Positions 2 through 18,099 of a DNA stretch of 34,977 nucleotides are shown here, piece after piece (the stretch's first letter is position 1; each line of letters starts with the position of its first letter). The notes under the pieces were generated by a model. It did not search any database and had not been told where the DNA came from. It saw only the letters and a list, made by a program, of their open reading frames with translations. The stretch comes from Candidatus Chloroploca mongolica (GTDB taxonomy: Bacteria > Chloroflexota > Chloroflexia > Chloroflexales > Chloroflexaceae): the NCBI RefSeq assembly GCF_004762035.2, contig NZ_SIJK02000053.1:1-34977 (forward strand), given 5' to 3'. The position numbers were made by a program, and so were the translations under genes.

Positions 2-1168
2 AACGAGGCCGGCCAGGCGACGGTGCCGAACGACCTTGGCACCGTCAGCCAGGTCAGCGCGGGTGGGAATCACACCTGTGCGGTAACGTCGGGTGGGGCG
101 TTGCGCTGCTGGGGAGAAAACAACTTTGACCAAGCGACGGTGCCGGGCGACCTCGGCGCGGTTAGCCAGGTCAGCGCAGGTGGGTATCACACCTGTGTGG
201 TGACGGCGAACGGGGCGCTGCGCTGCTGGGGGAACAATCGGTACGGCCAGGTAACGGTGCCAGCCGATCTCGGCAGCGTGAGTGCGATCAGCGCGGGGGG
301 ATGGGGTCACACCTGTGCCGTGACGGTGGAGGGGGTGCTGAGCTGCTGGGGATGGAATTTGGACGGCCATGCGACCGTACCGAATGACCTCGGCACAGTG
401 CGTGCAGTTAGCGTTGGCAGGGGCACATACATTTCTCAATTTATGGACACAGCGTCGCACAGCTGTGCCGTGACGGTGGAGGGGGTGCTGCGTTGCTGGG
501 GATGGAACGGGGACGGCCAATTGAACGTACCGAACGACCTCGGCGTAGTCAACCAGTTCAGCGCGGGAGGAGCCCACACGTGTGCGGTAACTACAGACGG
601 GAATCTGCGCTGCTGGGGGCGGAACAACTGGGACCAGGCGACCGTGCCGGGTGACCTCGGCGCGGTCAGCCAGGTCAGCGCGGGCCAACAACACACCTGT
701 GTGGTGACGGCGAACGGGGCGCTGCGCTGCTGGGGGTGGAACTACAGCGGCCAGGCGACGGTGCCGGACGACCTCGGCATAGTCAGCCAGGTCAGCGCGG
801 GCCAACAACACACCTGTGTGGTGACGGTGAACGGGGCGGTGCGCTGCTGGGGTGACCAAGCGACGGTGCCGAGCGACCTTGGCGCGGTCAGCCAGGTCAG
901 CACGGGCTATCAACACACGTGCGCGGTGGCGGTGGACGGGGCAGTGCGCTGCTGGGGGGGAAACTACAGCGGCCAGGCGACGGTGCCGGACGACCTCGGC
1001 ATAGTCAGCCAGGTCAGCGCGGGTCGGGATCACACCTGTGCCCTAACGGTGAAGGGGGTGCTGCGCTGTTGGGGCGATAATCAGTACGGCCAGACGACCA
1101 TCCCCCGTGATCCGTTGCGGGTCACGGGTCGCGATGCACGGGTCTATGTGCCAGTGTTGCGTCGGTAA
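2..1168 (+). CDS. Secreted RCC1-repeat (beta-propeller) protein, 5' truncated by window edge
   Basis: The reading frame is already open at base 2, before the first GTG at 23, so this is the 3' part of a longer gene. It encodes nine RCC1/ATS1-type repeats of about 39 residues with the pattern ATVPxDLGxVSQVSAG, then HTCxVTxxGxLRCWGxN. Such repeats fold as blades of a beta-propeller and usually mediate binding; no enzyme motif is visible. Each repeat carries two cysteines (HTC and RCW), which suits a secreted, disulfide-bonded protein. The fourth repeat has an insertion of about 11 residues and the seventh lacks the NxxxQ turn. The protein ends with RVYVPVLRR, a hydrophobic-proline-arginine tail resembling that of the giant protein ending at 18099. 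The signal peptide must lie upstream of the window. The RCC1-like class is secure; ligand and role are unknown. Confidence 0.85.
   Translation, partial: NEAGQATVPNDLGTVSQVSAGGNHTCAVTSGGALRCWGENNFDQATVPGDLGAVSQVSAGGYHTCVVTANGALRCWGNNRYGQVTVPADLGSVSAISAGGWGHTCAVTVEGVLSCWGWNLDGHATVPNDLGTVRAVSVGRGTYISQFMDTASHSCAVTVEGVLRCWGWNGDGQLNVPNDLGVVNQFSAGGAHTCAVTTDGNLRCWGRNNWDQATVPGDLGAVSQVSAGQQHTCVVTANGALRCWGWNYSGQATVPDDLGIVSQVSAGQQHTCVVTVNGAVRCWGDQATVPSDLGAVSQVSTGYQHTCAVAVDGAVRCWGGNYSGQATVPDDLGIVSQVSAGRDHTCALTVKGVLRCWGDNQYGQTTIPRDPLRVTGRDARVYVPVLRR
740..1023 (+). repeat. 62-bp exact direct repeat inside the RCC1 gene
   Basis: Bases 740-801 and 962-1023 are identical over 62 bp, and the surrounding RCC1 units are near-identical over much of their 117-bp length. 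This points to recent duplication or gene conversion between blades. Confidence 0.85.
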
Positions 1169-9482: not shown

Positions 9483-10703
9483 TTAGTACGAGATGATGAC
9501 GCGCGTGCCCAGGTCGGCCCAGCCATAGAGCCACTGGGCATCATCGATGCGCAGGTTGATGCAGCCGTGTGAGGCACGGATGCCAGTGCCGTGGTTGTCG
9601 TGCCAGTAGCTACCGTGCAGGGCTACGCCACCAACAACATACTGTACCCACGGAATATTTGGGACTTCCCAGCACTCGCCTCCCAAGCAGTCGGCCATCG
9701 TCTGCATCGGATATTTGAGGTAGATCGCATATTCGCCGACCGGCGTGTTGAAGCCGTCACGTCCGGTGGCAACGGGTGCGCGGAACACGAGCAGATCCCC
9801 TTCATAGGCCCTCAGCCACTGCTCGCTGAGGCTTACCTCGATGCGGCGTTCCCAAATGGCGGGGTGCCAGGTCAGCGTGCCGGGCATCTGGGTGACCGGG
9901 GCAATATTCACCCCACGGATTTGGGCCAGTTGCCGACCGAGATCGCTCAGTTGAATCTCGTGAAGCGAGTTGATCCGGTAGCCCGTCGAAGCGCGCATGC
10001 TCTGGAAGAAACTCGGCAGATCCTCGGGGAAATAGATGAATTTGGCCCGCTCGAAATACTGGACGAGCCGCCCCCCTTCGTCAACGGTTTCGCTTAATGG
10101 GAAGCCGAAGATGCGCATGCCGCCCCGCTTTTCCCAGGCTTTCCGGAACTCGCCCCAGAGGGTGTGGCCCGTTTCGGGGAAGTAGAGCACGCCTGTCTGT
10201 GGATCTTCGATCGGGGCCGGGAACCCCTGGTAGGCCAGCATATCGCGCCCCAGCAAGCCGAGTTGCACCTGTTCGTCGGCAGGCAGTTCGGGATGGTACT
10301 CGAAGCGTGCTCGCTCGAAGTATTGCACAATGCGCCCATCTTCGACAAACTCTTCGGTGAGCGGATAGCCAAACGTGTGGATTTGACCATTCGCCCGCCA
10401 GAAGTTGAGAAAGCCACTGCGGTTGCTCACGTGATGCCCCGTCTGCGCAAAATAGACGGTCTGCATCCGAGGCAATTGTTCTGCGTTCACGATGCCCGCC
10501 TGTTGGAACTGGCTGGCACGGAAAGCTACCTCGTTGGCCTGGGCCGCAACCACCGCAGCCCGCGCCTCACGGTAGCTCACCGGGGGCGCAAAATCAGCAC
10601 GCGGGTGACGCGCTTCAATATGCTGTGTCCAGAGAATACTACTTATGATAGCAGTAATAACGAGTAACGGAACGGCCAGTGGAAGCAAACGGCGAGCACG
10701 CAT
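9483..10703 (-). CDS. L,D-transpeptidase (YkuD domain) with two FGYP/VQYFERA repeats
   Basis: YkuD enzymes cross-link peptidoglycan (3-3 links) or attach proteins to it, outside the membrane. The 406-residue protein has an N-terminal membrane anchor (about 6-25). Two repeats of about 58 residues follow at 83-140 and 173-230, each with a YFxxTGH start, FG(Y/F)PLSE, then VQYFERA(R/K)F and a Y-x-PE end; I know this repeat from Chloroflexota surface proteins but not its function. The catalytic YkuD domain fills about 265-406, with H363 and the motif SHGC (catalytic C381) in HGTGIRASHGCINL. The ATG at 10703 follows AAGGA. A TATAAT promoter lies 50 bp upstream. The gene is single and ends against the tRNA-cluster hairpin. 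Confidence 0.9.
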   Translation of the reverse strand: MRARRLLPLAVPLLVITAIISSILWTQHIEARHPRADFAPPVSYREARAAVVAAQANEVAFRASQFQQAGIVNAEQLPRMQTVYFAQTGHHVSNRSGFLNFWRANGQIHTFGYPLTEEFVEDGRIVQYFERARFEYHPELPADEQVQLGLLGRDMLAYQGFPAPIEDPQTGVLYFPETGHTLWGEFRKAWEKRGGMRIFGFPLSETVDEGGRLVQYFERAKFIYFPEDLPSFFQSMRASTGYRINSLHEIQLSDLGRQLAQIRGVNIAPVTQMPGTLTWHPAIWERRIEVSLSEQWLRAYEGDLLVFRAPVATGRDGFNTPVGEYAIYLKYPMQTMADCLGGECWEVPNIPWVQYVVGGVALHGSYWHDNHGTGIRASHGCINLRIDDAQWLYGWADLGTRVIISY

Positions 10704-11025: not shown

Positions 11026-14000
11026 ATGCGCTGGCTAGTTGGTGGGATGTTTCCACGGATGCGATACGTGGCGAGCGTGATGCTCTTGCTTAGCGGGTTG
11101 CTGCTGGCGGGCAATGCGGGCACGCTCGTGCGCGCCGAACCGTTGCTTCCGACATCTACGTTGGTCGTGACGACCACTGCCGATAGTGGTCCTGGTTCGT
11201 TGCGCCAGGCCATCCTTGATGCCAATGCCAACCCCGGCGCGGACACCATCACCTTTGCCATTGGCGCAAGTGGCAGCCAGCAGACGATCCAGCCCACCAC
11301 TGCCCTCCCTACCATCACCGGCCCCGTCACCATTGATGGCTGGAGTCAGGGCGGCAGTAGCTACACCGGCCCGCCGCTCATCGAGCTCAACGGTGCGTTG
11401 GCGGGTCCTCAGGCCGTCGGCCTCACCCTCACCGGCGGCGGCAGCGTCGTGCGCGGGTTGGTGATCAATGGCTTTGCGATTGGCGGCTTCGCCGGTGGCA
11501 TTCGCCTGCAAACGGGCGGCGGCAACTGGATCTACGGGAACTACATCGGCATAAACTTCGCCGGGGATACACGGGTTGCCAATACGCGCGGCATCTGGAT
11601 TGACGGCGGCTCTAGCAACAACCGCATTGGCACCAATGCCGACGGCGTCAACGATGTGGCCGAGCGCAACGTCATCTCTGCCAACGTCGAGCAGAATATC
11701 TGGATCTATCAGCCCGCCACTGTGGGCAACCTGATTATGGGCAACTACATCGGCCTGAATGCGTCGGGCACAGCGGCTGTGGGTACAAACAATCAGACCG
11801 TCGCTGCCGCCGGTATTCTGGTGCAGGAAGCCAGTTACACGGTCATCGGCACCGATGGCGACGGGCAAGGTGATGCGCTGGAAGGCAACGTCATTAGCGG
11901 CAGCATCCTCAACATCAACCTGACCGGCACAAGCAACCTCAACGAGAGCCACCACAACCGCATCTCCGGCAATCTGATTGGCACGAACGCCAGCGGCACG
12001 GCCAGCGTGGGCATCCAGGCGGAAGGCGTGCGTGTCTACGTCGCGTATGACAACCTCATCGGTACGGATGGCGACGGCGTTTCTGACGAATTGGAAGGCA
12101 ACGTCATCTCTGGCAACATCGATTTTGGCGTGATGCTGCAGCAGACCGGATCACGCAACACCGTCGTCGCCGGCAACAAGATTGGCACGGACATCACCGG
12201 GATGCTCTCCCTTCGCAACGGTTATGGCAGTTCGCCGCGCGCTGGCATCCTGCTGGGCGGCTACGGCAACCGCATCGGCACCAATAGCGACGGCGTCTCC
12301 GACGACCTGGAACGCAACCTGATCTCCGGCAACACCAATGTGTCCACGTACGCCATCTACTTCAACAACCTGCCCAACCCTGATGCGCCACCCACGATCA
12401 TCGCCGGGAATTGGATGGGAGTAGACGCCACCGGTCTGGCAGCGCTGCCCAACAATGTCGGCATCGGCAGCACCTCGTACGCTCCCACGATCATCCGCGA
12501 CAACGTGATCTCCGGCCACACTATTGAAGGCATCAGTACCCATTCGTCCAATATGCGGATCACCGGCAATCGGATTGGCGTGGGCGCGGATGGCGTCACG
12601 CCGCTGGGCAATGGGCAGCACGGGCTTTTCCTATCGGGCAATGACAATGTGATCGGCGGTACCGAACCCGGGGAAGCCAACATTATCGCCCACAATGGCA
12701 CAATCTCGGCATTCTACAGCGGCGTGAGAGTGGGCAATACTGGCCTGCGCAATGCGATTCGCGGCAACCGCATCTACGCCAATTCGCAACTGGGCATCGA
12801 TCTGCGCTGGCCCGATGGCGTGAATATCAACGATGATGACGACCTGGACACCGGCGGCAACAACCTGCAAAACTACCCGGTCATCACCTTTGCCCAGGGC
12901 TATGCCAATGGCACGACCGTGCTTCGAGGCACGCTGAACAGCAATGCCAACATCACCTTCACCCTCGATTTCTATTACAGCACCGAGGCCGATCCCAGTG
13001 GCTATGGCGAAGGTGAGTTCTACCTAGGTGCGGCCAGTGTAAGCACCGATGCCGAAGGCGACGCCGAATTTGACGTGACTCTGCCCACGACCATTCCGCC
13101 CAATCAGTTCGTCAGCGCCACCGCCACGCACGCCGATGGCAGCACGTCGGAGTTTTCGCTGGCCCTGCCCGCCGGGGGCGTGCTCGATCCACCAATCGTC
13201 GGACTGAACGCGGCCCACACCACCTCGGGCTATGCCAATGATCCTGTCACCTTTGCCGCCAGTATCAGTGCCGGGACGGGCGTGAGCTACGTGTGGCATC
13301 TGGGTGACGGCAATCTGGCCGCCGGGCCGCTGCTCGAACATAGCTACGCCGCACCGGGGGTCTATACTGCTACCGTCACGGCCAGCAACAACAGCAGTAG
13401 TGCGCAGGCGCACACGGTTGTCACGCTGGTCGAGGCCCCCAACATCAATGGCCGCGTCTGGCAGGATCTGGATCTTGACGGCATCCTGGGTCTCGGCGAA
13501 GGTGGCATGGCAGGGGTGACGGTTACGGCTGTTGGTTCCACCGGCAGCATCGAAGCCATCACCGATGCCGACGGTCGGTACCAGATCTTTATCCCCGAAC
13601 CGGGCCTTTATACCGTAAGCGCTTCAGCCGCGAATATGTCACCGACAACCGCGACCGATCTTGCCATTCCGATGGGCGATCAGGGCGGCACCGTCGTGAA
13701 CTTTGGTCTGCACGAAACGCCGCCCGCCGGTTTTGGCATCATCGCCGGGCGCACCTGGGTAGACCTGGACGGATCCGGCTTTCCCGAGCCAGACGAAGAG
13801 CCGTTGGCCGGGTTGCAACTCGATTTCTATGGCTTTCAATTTCCGCAACAGACTATGACCACCGACGCCGACGGCCTGTTTCGCCTGATCTTGCCCCACG
13901 AGCGGAGCTACGTTCTGCAGATGTATGCGCCAGGATTTTTCCCGCCCGAGCGTCGCTTAGGGGGCTTCAATATTTGGCTCGATCAGGACGATCCGCTGCT

Positions 14001-17000: not shown

Positions 17001-18099
17001 CAACCTGACCGAGAGTGCCGCGCTCGCGTGGTCGGCCTTCCGCGATGACAACCTGAACGGAGTCTGGGACGACAACGAACCATCCGTACCTGGTGTCCGG
17101 GTCGGCAGCGATACGACCGGTCTGATCACCGGTCTCGCCAACGGGCTCCAGACCCTGGATGTCGTAGCGCCGACCGGGTATCTGCCAGTGCAGGGCAACA
17201 GGGCCTCGATCTGGCTGAATGGCGCCGATGCAACGCTGCCGCCGCTGCCCTTCCGCTTTGCCGGAGGCTTGCAGGGGCACGTTTTTGCCGATGAAGACGG
17301 CGACACCTGGCTCCGCGAGGGCGAATCCGGCGTCGTCGGGGTGGTGCTTGCCCTGACTGGCCCCACGACAGCCACGGTTGTCAGCGATGCACAGGGCCGC
17401 TTCAGCCTCCCCACGCTTCCCGACGGAACCTACACCGTCACCGTTACGCCTCCGGCCACGTATGCCGCCGTCCCACCCCAGACGCTCACCCTCGAAGACG
17501 GTGGCGGGCTAAGCATCGCTCTCCGCCCCTTGGCGCAACTCTCGGGGGCCGTCTACGACGACTGGGACAACGACGGCCAGCGTGGTGCCGACGAGCCGCT
17601 GGTCACCACACCGATCACCGTGACCGTCAACGGCATAGGGGCGCAGCGCACAGCACTCGGCATGTTCCGTTTCTGGGAGGTGCCTGACGGAGCGTACACC
17701 GTCACCCCCTGGTGGCGGGCCGTCGATCCAGGCGCGGCCAACCCCACAACAACCAGCGCCATCGGCCTCCCTGCCGTCCCGGCGGGCATCGTCCGCGGCA
17801 CCGCCTGGCTCGACAGCAACGGCGACGGTCTGCGCCAACCCTGGGAAGCGCCGCTCGCTGGCGTACCCATCGTGCTCGGTGAACAAACGACTGTCACCGA
17901 TCACGACGGGCGCTATCTGTTGGGAGAAATCCGCCCAGGTACCTACCCACTTGCCGCGAACCTCCCGCAGGGGCTTGCGGTAAGCCTGGAACCGATCACG
18001 ATCAGTGACACACGTGGGCTTGCCATTGGCCTCGCCGCCACGCCAGCGCAACCGGGCGAACGGTATCGCATCTTCTTGCCAACCCTCGCAGCCCGGTAA
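11026..18099 (+). CDS. Giant secreted protein: beta-helix, PKD and about 14 SdrD/CnaB-like modules
   Basis: I start this 2,357-residue protein at the ATG 11026 because AGGAG lies 8 nt upstream and a clear signal peptide follows (hydrophobic core about 14-28, cleavage likely near VRAEP). Residues about 45-700 form a right-handed beta-helix opened by the SLRQAILDAN segment, with repeated IGTxxDGxxDxLExNxISGN coils. A PKD domain follows (about 721-803, with VSYVWHLGDG and GVYTATVTA). From about 806 to the end come some 14 SdrD_B/CnaB-like modules of the type GxVWxDxDxDGxxxxGE..LxGVxV, many with an acidic DxDxDG loop that probably binds calcium. The tail reads YRIFLPTLAAR, like the RCC1 protein. 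There is no LPXTG motif. A cell-surface stalk or adhesin is likely by architecture; the ligand is unknown. Confidence 0.9.
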   Translation: MRWLVGGMFPRMRYVASVMLLLSGLLLAGNAGTLVRAEPLLPTSTLVVTTTADSGPGSLRQAILDANANPGADTITFAIGASGSQQTIQPTTALPTITGPVTIDGWSQGGSSYTGPPLIELNGALAGPQAVGLTLTGGGSVVRGLVINGFAIGGFAGGIRLQTGGGNWIYGNYIGINFAGDTRVANTRGIWIDGGSSNNRIGTNADGVNDVAERNVISANVEQNIWIYQPATVGNLIMGNYIGLNASGTAAVGTNNQTVAAAGILVQEASYTVIGTDGDGQGDALEGNVISGSILNINLTGTSNLNESHHNRISGNLIGTNASGTASVGIQAEGVRVYVAYDNLIGTDGDGVSDELEGNVISGNIDFGVMLQQTGSRNTVVAGNKIGTDITGMLSLRNGYGSSPRAGILLGGYGNRIGTNSDGVSDDLERNLISGNTNVSTYAIYFNNLPNPDAPPTIIAGNWMGVDATGLAALPNNVGIGSTSYAPTIIRDNVISGHTIEGISTHSSNMRITGNRIGVGADGVTPLGNGQHGLFLSGNDNVIGGTEPGEANIIAHNGTISAFYSGVRVGNTGLRNAIRGNRIYANSQLGIDLRWPDGVNINDDDDLDTGGNNLQNYPVITFAQGYANGTTVLRGTLNSNANITFTLDFYYSTEADPSGYGEGEFYLGAASVSTDAEGDAEFDVTLPTTIPPNQFVSATATHADGSTSEFSLALPAGGVLDPPIVGLNAAHTTSGYANDPVTFAASISAGTGVSYVWHLGDGNLAAGPLLEHSYAAPGVYTATVTASNNSSSAQAHTVVTLVEAPNINGRVWQDLDLDGILGLGEGGMAGVTVTAVGSTGSIEAITDADGRYQIFIPEPGLYTVSASAANMSPTTATDLAIPMGDQGGTVVNFGLHETPPAGFGIIAGRTWVDLDGSGFPEPDEEPLAGLQLDFYGFQFPQQTMTTDADGLFRLILPHERSYVLQMYAPGFFPPERRLGGFNIWLDQDDPLLNYHAPFNRGGTVSGRVTTTGGAGIPNASLNIGQPFAVTTTNANGDYAFLNQEPSASKGLGINPPFPYVLGSSSGFRVFPLPPNSFVTENWLAERIGRLTVHTQQTIGSQTLPAGFIFFRLQGNGVDQTLVTGVNGQAWADLDAGTYTLTVLPEYLPPETIVAPTSRTVVVANNTFANTTFTVTPAQALAVGCEVAGQGFPCTVEIYDADGNLVATVDLTSANPATVITDLPPGSYEVVVIPAEPGWPESSSVVTLDGETHAEVDYPFNPTNLQTISGYAYWDRCYPLGVRGNTDYCTETNIPSNNDLTVTLANATGTVISTTVTTVGTGWNTGYYAFSNLPVGNYRVTINFPGGFVPQTAASAWRNLTGFGSPEMLNFGYTRTENRSLTGYAFYDVNNNGSYDVGIDDPYAGAAITVTSLTDTPISTHTTASDGSFTVLSITSGEYRVTLSTPDLQLTRIAVVPASGGIPWVQFPLPPNDARPRAIVFLDSNHDGQLNPGEQRLGGVDVALTNQPCGGLAAPIDTRTTNTDGLVLFTNPLAAQMRTLAAAPGSPPGCVKIVTSTLPADVAPANLNGATMPRNSGVPVMLPVYAQGTLLVQVFWDIDGDGTHDSNEPLLGSGSATVGGQTRSVSENGATFVLATGNYSLNVVAPAGYTFSAAQPLNVVVGAGVTTRKVAVRVAGGISGAVIGPEGAMAGTTVRLTNVATNQTYETVAATGCVGWCSDAFYQFTNLPTGQYRLSIPTLPPGHLLASEPVVNYAAAGQSIQQNLLLNPLGYLSGLVYLDANLNAQRDVGEATATGYVVTLLNDGGLPVQTAVPDANGAYLFTNVQAGVRYLVTVDLYVSQAASASDSLTEAPGWFLPGTQPVQANIGIYQGGGEHNYNTVYGRITANGAGVAGVRIGYYQWVPDGGCQQSNPAWQGLETTSDINGAYKLLTNMLPGNGLAYCIAARQLSGYQQSTFQATGTNFSYQTTGGAIIWHPGYWQRDLTLVPAAAQPRNLTESAALAWSAFRDDNLNGVWDDNEPSVPGVRVGSDTTGLITGLANGLQTLDVVAPTGYLPVQGNRASIWLNGADATLPPLPFRFAGGLQGHVFADEDGDTWLREGESGVVGVVLALTGPTTATVVSDAQGRFSLPTLPDGTYTVTVTPPATYAAVPPQTLTLEDGGGLSIALRPLAQLSGAVYDDWDNDGQRGADEPLVTTPITVTVNGIGAQRTALGMFRFWEVPDGAYTVTPWWRAVDPGAANPTTTSAIGLPAVPAGIVRGTAWLDSNGDGLRQPWEAPLAGVPIVLGEQTTVTDHDGRYLLGEIRPGTYPLAANLPQGLAVSLEPITISDTRGLAIGLAATPAQPGERYRIFLPTLAAR

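Follow-up and report, generated by a model that had tools for sequence, protein, structure and literature searches.

A short C-terminal tail on dissimilar exported proteins of Candidatus Chloroploca mongolica and other Chloroflexota: a candidate sorting tag

Do otherwise unrelated exported proteins of Candidatus Chloroploca mongolica share a sorting signal at their extreme C-termini? The window, that is, the whole stretch of 34,977 nucleotides that was analysed, is the entire contig C109 of the source genome (6.32 Mb, 160 contigs). It encodes a giant protein and an RCC1-repeat protein for which a first-pass annotation had proposed a common terminal peptide. Both endings, YRIFLPTLAAR in the giant protein and RVYVPVLRR in the RCC1-repeat protein, were confirmed in translation, with the start of the second placed at 1139 rather than 1141, a shift of two bases, and both are, by eye, the last residues past the final repeat module, as the annotation had it (Table 1). 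In the giant protein, PKD, carboxypeptidase-regulatory-like and SdrD_B-like domains (Pfam) are followed by the tail, and the C-terminus reads ...GERYRIFLPTLAAR; this tail is a looser member of the set described below, in which Thr replaces L/V and an additional residue precedes the Arg. The best-scoring stretch of the RCC1-like domain covers residues 223-368 of 388 in the RCC1-repeat protein (Pfam, best stretches only), and two RCC1-type proteins encoded elsewhere in the source genome (L007, L024) end RDERVYVPVLRR. Next to the giant tailed gene, on the other strand, lies a YkuD L,D-transpeptidase gene, which may be a link to the envelope.

Table 1. Features of the window
Feature	Positions	Strand	Basis and remarks
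Giant protein, 2357 aa	11026..18099	+	ATG at 11026, stop at 18097-18099; exported by a home-made signal-peptide rule; domains from Pfam
Giant protein, probable Sec signal peptide	11026..11133 (boundary approximate)	+	Basic residues, then a hydrophobic core; home-made rule
Giant protein, tail YRIFLPTLAAR and stop	18064..18099 (peptide 18064-18096)	+	Translation
RCC1-repeat protein, 5' end lost at contig start	2..1168	+	Pfam RCC1_2, E = 1.6e-84
RCC1-repeat protein, tail RVYVPVLRR and stop	1139..1168 (peptide 1139-1165, stop 1166-1168)	+	Translation
YkuD L,D-transpeptidase gene	9483-10703	-	

The tail and the exported proteins of the source genome

Across the 6.3-Mb source genome, the pattern Y-[LIVM]-P-[LIVM]-x-x-R followed by T-R-R yields 28 matches, compared with 3 for the reversed pattern that served as the control. 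Open frames of at least 91 residues are closed by 24 of the 28; the other four are a match that reads TGG (L002) and three frames of fewer than 45 residues (L003, L008, L019). The proteome was sampled over 835 kb, namely, 800 kb of contigs C72, C83, C94 and C116 plus the window, in which 639 genes were called; genes and signal peptides come from home-made scripts rather than from SignalP and Prodigal, and the class sizes are approximate. In this sample, [YFW][LIVM]P[LIVMFT]xx[RK] ends none of the 12,231 other ORF ends of at least 30 codons and 17 of the 639 called genes, a share that overestimates that of the genome because the contigs were chosen by size among those with a pattern match and are about twofold enriched in tails.

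Within the sample, the difference between exported proteins and the rest is not affected by the choice of contigs in the same way, and it stands. A wider form of the tail, in which L is also accepted in the aromatic place and two or three spacer residues are allowed, is present in 14 of the 41 proteins that pass a strict signal-peptide rule and have no membrane segment further on versus 5 of the 597 others (Fisher p = 1.8e-14), so that the C-terminal enrichment on signal-peptide proteins predicted by the first-pass annotation is clear, in a sample of the source genome rather than in all Chloroflexota. By eye, these other five look like wrong starts or misread classes, one of them being the contig-truncated RCC1 gene. 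Under a loose export rule that admits many false positives (Rossmann folds), exported proteins carry the strict tail in 12 of 119 cases, one-TM proteins in 2 of 78, membrane proteins in 0 of 107 and soluble proteins in 1 of 334, and the one soluble carrier is, again, the truncated RCC1 gene. Within exported proteins, 16 copies of the core motif fall in the last 12 positions (1,428 residues) versus 3 in 46,404 interior residues, and tail frequency in the strict-signal-peptide set climbs with protein length (0/4, 1/12, 7/18 and 6/7, the last class comprising proteins of at least 800 aa). Lipoproteins, the smaller size of which is a confounder in this comparison, are tailed in 0 of 16 cases (p = 0.003) after the reassignment of one misread Sec protein, or in 1 of 17 as classified (p = 0.02); a second lipoprotein row, C116 38334-39998, may likewise be misread.

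The carriers of the tail are dissimilar. A BLAST comparison of the 100 residues ahead of the tail sorted the 34 distinct tailed ORFs of the source genome into 30 clusters, with no detectable similarity between clusters in that region. In the two window proteins and 10 others, the carrier domains include RCC1 and Kelch propellers, a DUF5122 propeller, and laminin-G-like, SdrD_B and C11/C13 peptidase-like domains, with three of these 10 further proteins lacking any Pfam match. Only 4 of the 34 ORFs have a linker rich in P, T, S, G or A ahead of the tail. The consensus is R-V-[YFW]-[LIV]-P-[LIV]-[VAL]-x-[R/K], roughly R-V-Y-L-P-L-V-x-R, nearly always as the last nine residues, with W in place of Y in some tails, e.g., NIVWLPFAAR. 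At the positions that the search had left free, the 29 cluster representatives have V, A, L, T, I or M at -3 (29/29), V at -8 (20/29) and R at -9 (14/29). Because the most conserved features fall on alternate residues, namely, the aromatic at -7, Pro at -5, the aliphatic at -3 and Arg at -1, this pattern suggests that the tail may bind as an extended strand in a groove. In sum, the tail has the broad attributes of a C-terminal sorting tag: enrichment on Sec-exported proteins, a fixed position and dissimilar carriers.

Conservation and spread within the Chloroflexota

Ortholog pairs that had been picked for having the tail were left out as evidence, given the selection bias, and an ortholog set independent of the tail was obtained with the whole sequence of a 917-aa tailed protein as the query against 60 genomes of the order, from which 30 loci were fetched. 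In the close set of 19 loci (L240-L258), one (L250) is cut by a contig end, which leaves 18 aligned sequences, the query and 17 orthologs. Pro(-5) and Arg(-1) are present in all 18, as is L or V at -6, and the aromatic at -7 in 17 of the 18, whereas the mean modal frequency of columns -18 to -10, ahead of the tail, is 0.45; one ortholog (L257) has five extra residues beyond the tail. This conservation shows that the tail matters. Of 11 more distant, one-domain relatives, 8 extend beyond the fetched piece, and no tail is present in the 3 whose end can be read (L259, L262, L269). The 917-aa protein, exported, of the clostripain fold and kept across the family, is the most conserved tailed protein that we met; given that no His is invariant among the 18 aligned sequences, it is probably a pseudo-peptidase rather than an active enzyme. 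Of the 40 other genomes of the order that were searched with a 406-aa tailed protein, just one has a full ortholog, so that single carriers may turn over fast while the tag persists.

A search of 84,980 GTDB species genomes with RVYLPLVxR followed by T-R-R returned 31 records, where about 4 matches would be expected at random if base frequencies were equal. All 31 bear Chloroflexota names, taking the taxon names in the record titles to belong to this phylum, and with this one strict pattern no record named for another phylum was found in the 84,980 genomes. The names include Chloroflexaceae, Chloroploca, Viridilinea, Roseiflexus, Herpetosiphonaceae, Ardenticatenaceae, Thermoflexales, Anaerolineae and others, together with one metagenome-assembled genome (MAG) labelled Ktedonobacter. 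A true in-frame stop follows the motif in 31 of the 31 records and TGG in none, and 30 are frames of more than 100 residues, the remaining one (L108) being cut after 31 residues at the edge of the piece. The tail recurs across the Chloroflexota and, in its strict GTDB form, occurs under Chloroflexota names alone. The end of one tailed protein of the source genome (L001) is nearly identical to that of L112, which makes Candidatus Chloroploca the probable genus of the window. Two adjacent tailed genes lie on a MAG contig titled Ktedonobacter racemifer (L117); if that title is right, Ktedonobacteria would also use the tail.

The spread within the phylum is uneven. Among 301 Chloroflexota genomes, tail matches numbered 231 versus 10 controls in family f1 (19 genomes), 48 versus 7 in f2-f4 (10 genomes), 6 versus 6 in f5-f8 (8 genomes) and 114 versus 143 in the other 264; within the latter, f29 (15 versus 4), f45 (11 versus 2) and f57 (7 versus 0) stand above control, and long frames with the tail were read at loci of f29, f41, f45, f52 and f68. 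Because the strict pattern is at the control level overall in these 264 genomes of other classes, the tag is patchy outside Chloroflexales. In one genus (g6, six genomes), the Lys-ended form gave 33 matches, three of them reading TGG, versus 11 controls, and the Arg-ended form gave 16 versus 5; in f1, the Lys-ended form gave 8 versus 9 controls, yet 8 of the 8 places close long frames, and in the source genome the Lys-ended pattern has 0 matches. Conserved frames ending in YIPIEQR or YVPLSER (L045, L049, L050) and frames of 165-166 aa ending in YIYVPIREK or YIYVPVKEK (L274, L273) were set aside as false positives of the patterns, and one further, noisy pattern, for which the controls were near the counts in 4 of 6 genomes, served for sequence reading only.

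The position of the motif is a rule rather than an absolute. In the source genome, an N-terminal copy lies past a signal peptide, HFLFLPIVAQPG (HFLFLPIVAQ; C116 38334-39998, L097-L098); another, IVYLPFVAR, lies near the start of the mature chain of an exported protein (L220 8740-9387). An internal copy, SNAVYLPVVTRGG, is found at residue 464 of 711 (C83 156041-158176), and C83 165753-169937 encodes a tandem copy, HAIFLPMLR...HAVYLPLTLR. The extreme C-terminal placement claimed in the first-pass annotation is therefore upheld as the usual state and has to be relaxed for a small number of copies that lie N-terminally or internally or are slightly extended.

Comparison with known C-terminal tags

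The likeness to LPXTG/sortase signals lies in the C-terminal location on large, Sec-exported surface proteins of several families, in the L-P and in the sortases of these genomes; the difference is that the Chloroflexota tail, about nine residues in total, has neither the TM helix nor the basic cluster, nor the T-G, and stops 4-5 residues past the Pro, and that the source genome has a classical LPETS-type substrate apart from the tailed proteins, next to a sortase of its own (L219). In Firmicutes, the SdrD_B domain type precedes the LPXTG anchor, and in the giant protein, the tail takes the place of that anchor behind SdrD_B-type repeats. KDEL and PTS1, which are eukaryotic and intracellular, are short linear motifs that end unrelated proteins and have one receptor each; the Chloroflexota tail resembles them in its shortness, its linear form and its terminal position on unrelated proteins.

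PEP-CTERM, in the outline given by its source, consists of a motif, a TM helix and a basic cluster and goes with EpsH; like the tail, it is a short homology region near the C-terminal extreme that occurs in many copies per genome on varied signal-peptide proteins (PMC1569441). It differs in the TM helix and the basic cluster, both of which the tail lacks, and the exosortase family PF09721 has no match (E <= 0.001) in any of the 31 Chloroflexales genomes. MYXO-CTERM and GlyGly-CTERM are outlined as C-terminal tags of surface proteins that recur or span a lineage, the former tripartite with an invariant Cys (PMC11980579, PMC3237569, PMC13393428), whereas the Chloroflexota tail has neither Cys nor TM helix. 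The T9SS C-terminal domain of Bacteroidetes, as sketched in PMC4804311, is an export or anchoring signal that, like the tail, is C-terminal and has no TM helix, but is a folded beta-sandwich as opposed to a nonapeptide. The Por_Secre_tail model (TIGR04183) has no C-terminal match in three tailed proteins, and its sub-cutoff match in the giant protein lies at residues 1193-1230 of 2357. No best stretch listed for NCBIfam models falls on the tail in three full-length tailed proteins (E up to 10), and no stretch listed by Pfam for either window protein reaches it. In the literature searched on the motif and on Chloroflexi sorting signals, with few subscription papers covered, no description of the tail was found among the matches listed. 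For GhlA, the DUF11 hook protein of Litorilinea aerophila, the peptides detected extend to residue 6,566 of 6,596 (PMC13319060). The tail works like a sorting tag and is not a member of any named class whose defining features were tested.

Possible roles and candidate partners

The best reading, to which we assign about an even chance, is that the tail is a linear docking or retention tag, used after Sec export, on otherwise soluble Chloroflexota proteins. A tagged protein would leave the cell by Sec. One common surface component would then bind its extended tail, perhaps as an added strand in a groove; the likely recognised features are the Pro/aromatic pair and the positive charge of the last residue, which is Arg or, in one genus and some other families, often Lys. 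Large adhesin-like or hydrolase-like proteins, once bound, would stay on the cell surface or within the sheath. The tag would then play the part that LPXTG has in Gram-positives, with no need of a membrane helix. Release or assistance with export would predict the same enrichment as surface retention. The N-terminal, internal and extended (L257) copies do not fit a strictly C-terminal signal and do not conflict with docking; for the N-terminal, internal and tandem copies, a docking peptide is a better match than cleavage at the C-terminus. The undescribed anchoring or secretion signal envisaged in the first-pass annotation has gained support as a signal, from export enrichment, recurrence in the phylum and conservation in orthologs, whereas its role in anchoring or secretion is a putative one. 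With somewhat less than an even chance, in our estimate, the tail could belong to a phylum-specific, helix-free address system, in which one surface receptor would read the extended R-V-Y-L-P-L-V-x-R, usually at the C-terminus and also at the mature N-terminus, and so assemble large adhesins, propellers and hydrolases on the surface or sheath.

An unlikely alternative is a processed sorting signal, such that a partnerless sortase or another transpeptidase would cleave the LP-containing tail and join the protein to the envelope without the involvement of a membrane helix. Apart from the L-P itself, this scenario draws on the presence of sortase PF04203 in all 31 Chloroflexales genomes searched. 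It also draws on the four PF04203 matches of the source genome (L219-L222, with 10 kb read around each), only one of which adjoins an LPETS-TM-basic substrate, the other three having no LPXTG-type partner among the genes called around them, and on the finding that 7 of the 639 sampled proteins have a C-terminal membrane segment with basic residues, none LPXTG-like by eye. However, the tail has no TM helix or basic cluster of the classical kind, and sortase does not discriminate: PF04203 is present in 209 of the 301 Chloroflexota genomes, tail-poor families included (f13 17/17, f24 17/21, f25 15/16, f27 13/19), whereas genome G168 of f45 has tail-like ends, one closing a long frame (L133), yet no sortase match. 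Sortase was set aside as a candidate partner of the tail on these grounds; moreover, the copies at the N-terminus and within the chain speak against a cleavage signal confined to the C-terminus, and exosortase is absent from the 31 Chloroflexales genomes, as described above. Two further observations concern the sortases themselves. In two genera, a sortase gene is followed by a gene for a protein with an LPETSTG- or LPNTSAG-TM-basic end (L219 3931-7019; L223 4946-7647, genome G134), a classical pair; and in four genomes of the tail-poor f13 (G005, G018, G046, G255), the sortase domains are embedded in long open frames (about 2,700-3,600 aa).

Clostripain (C11, PF03415), found in 36 of the 301 genomes and in 17 of the 19 genomes of f1, co-varies with the tail, and several of its matches are tailed proteins themselves; it was rejected as a partner because it has no match in the strongly tailed genome G070 (16 tail matches versus 2 controls). 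Legumain (PF01650) is present in 5 of the 301 genomes, and by eye no gene neighbour of tailed genes recurs among the 31 GTDB loci. The co-occurring processing enzyme that the first-pass annotation had proposed to look for was not found, with exosortase absent, sortase non-discriminating and clostripain missing from some tailed genomes.

A late-export or folding signal, bound and then released by an extracytoplasmic chaperone or an outer-layer exporter, would account for the same enrichment data, and the greater frequency of the tail in longer proteins suits an aid for large proteins; it is nevertheless likewise unlikely, as no such machinery was found and an outer-layer exporter would be of doubtful need if the members are monoderm or atypical, as those of Chloroflexota are thought to be. 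It seems improbable that the tail is a quality-control or stability tag, read at the C-terminus by an extracytoplasmic PDZ-type protease or protecting against carboxypeptidases: the fixed position, the invariant last residue and the hydrophobic positions are as in PDZ/Tsp ligands, but such ligands usually end in hydrophobic residues, and the N-terminal and internal copies would be meaningless. Very improbable is an Lpp-like covalent link, in which an L,D-transpeptidase would join the C-terminal basic residue to peptidoglycan. The last residue is basic, with Lys in some clades, and the YkuD gene is adjacent to the giant gene, but the source genome uses Arg, its Lys-ended pattern being unmatched, and we know of no Arg acceptor for such a linkage. 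The absence of any function, with the tail arising by chance, from composition or through spread with a shared last domain, is almost certainly incorrect in view of the untailed non-gene ORF ends (0 of 12,231), the 30 clusters that lack similarity ahead of the tail and the invariance of Pro and Arg in the 18 aligned sequences.

Sorting tags render the exported, surface-bound proteome readable straight from sequence, and the LPXTG and PEP-CTERM classes led to the discovery of their enzymes. In the poorly understood envelopes of Chloroflexota, we now have a helix-free tag of about nine residues that matches no known class compared here. The tail is a means to annotate many uncharacterised secreted proteins and a handle for tracing their putative receptor, and might also be put to use in protein display.
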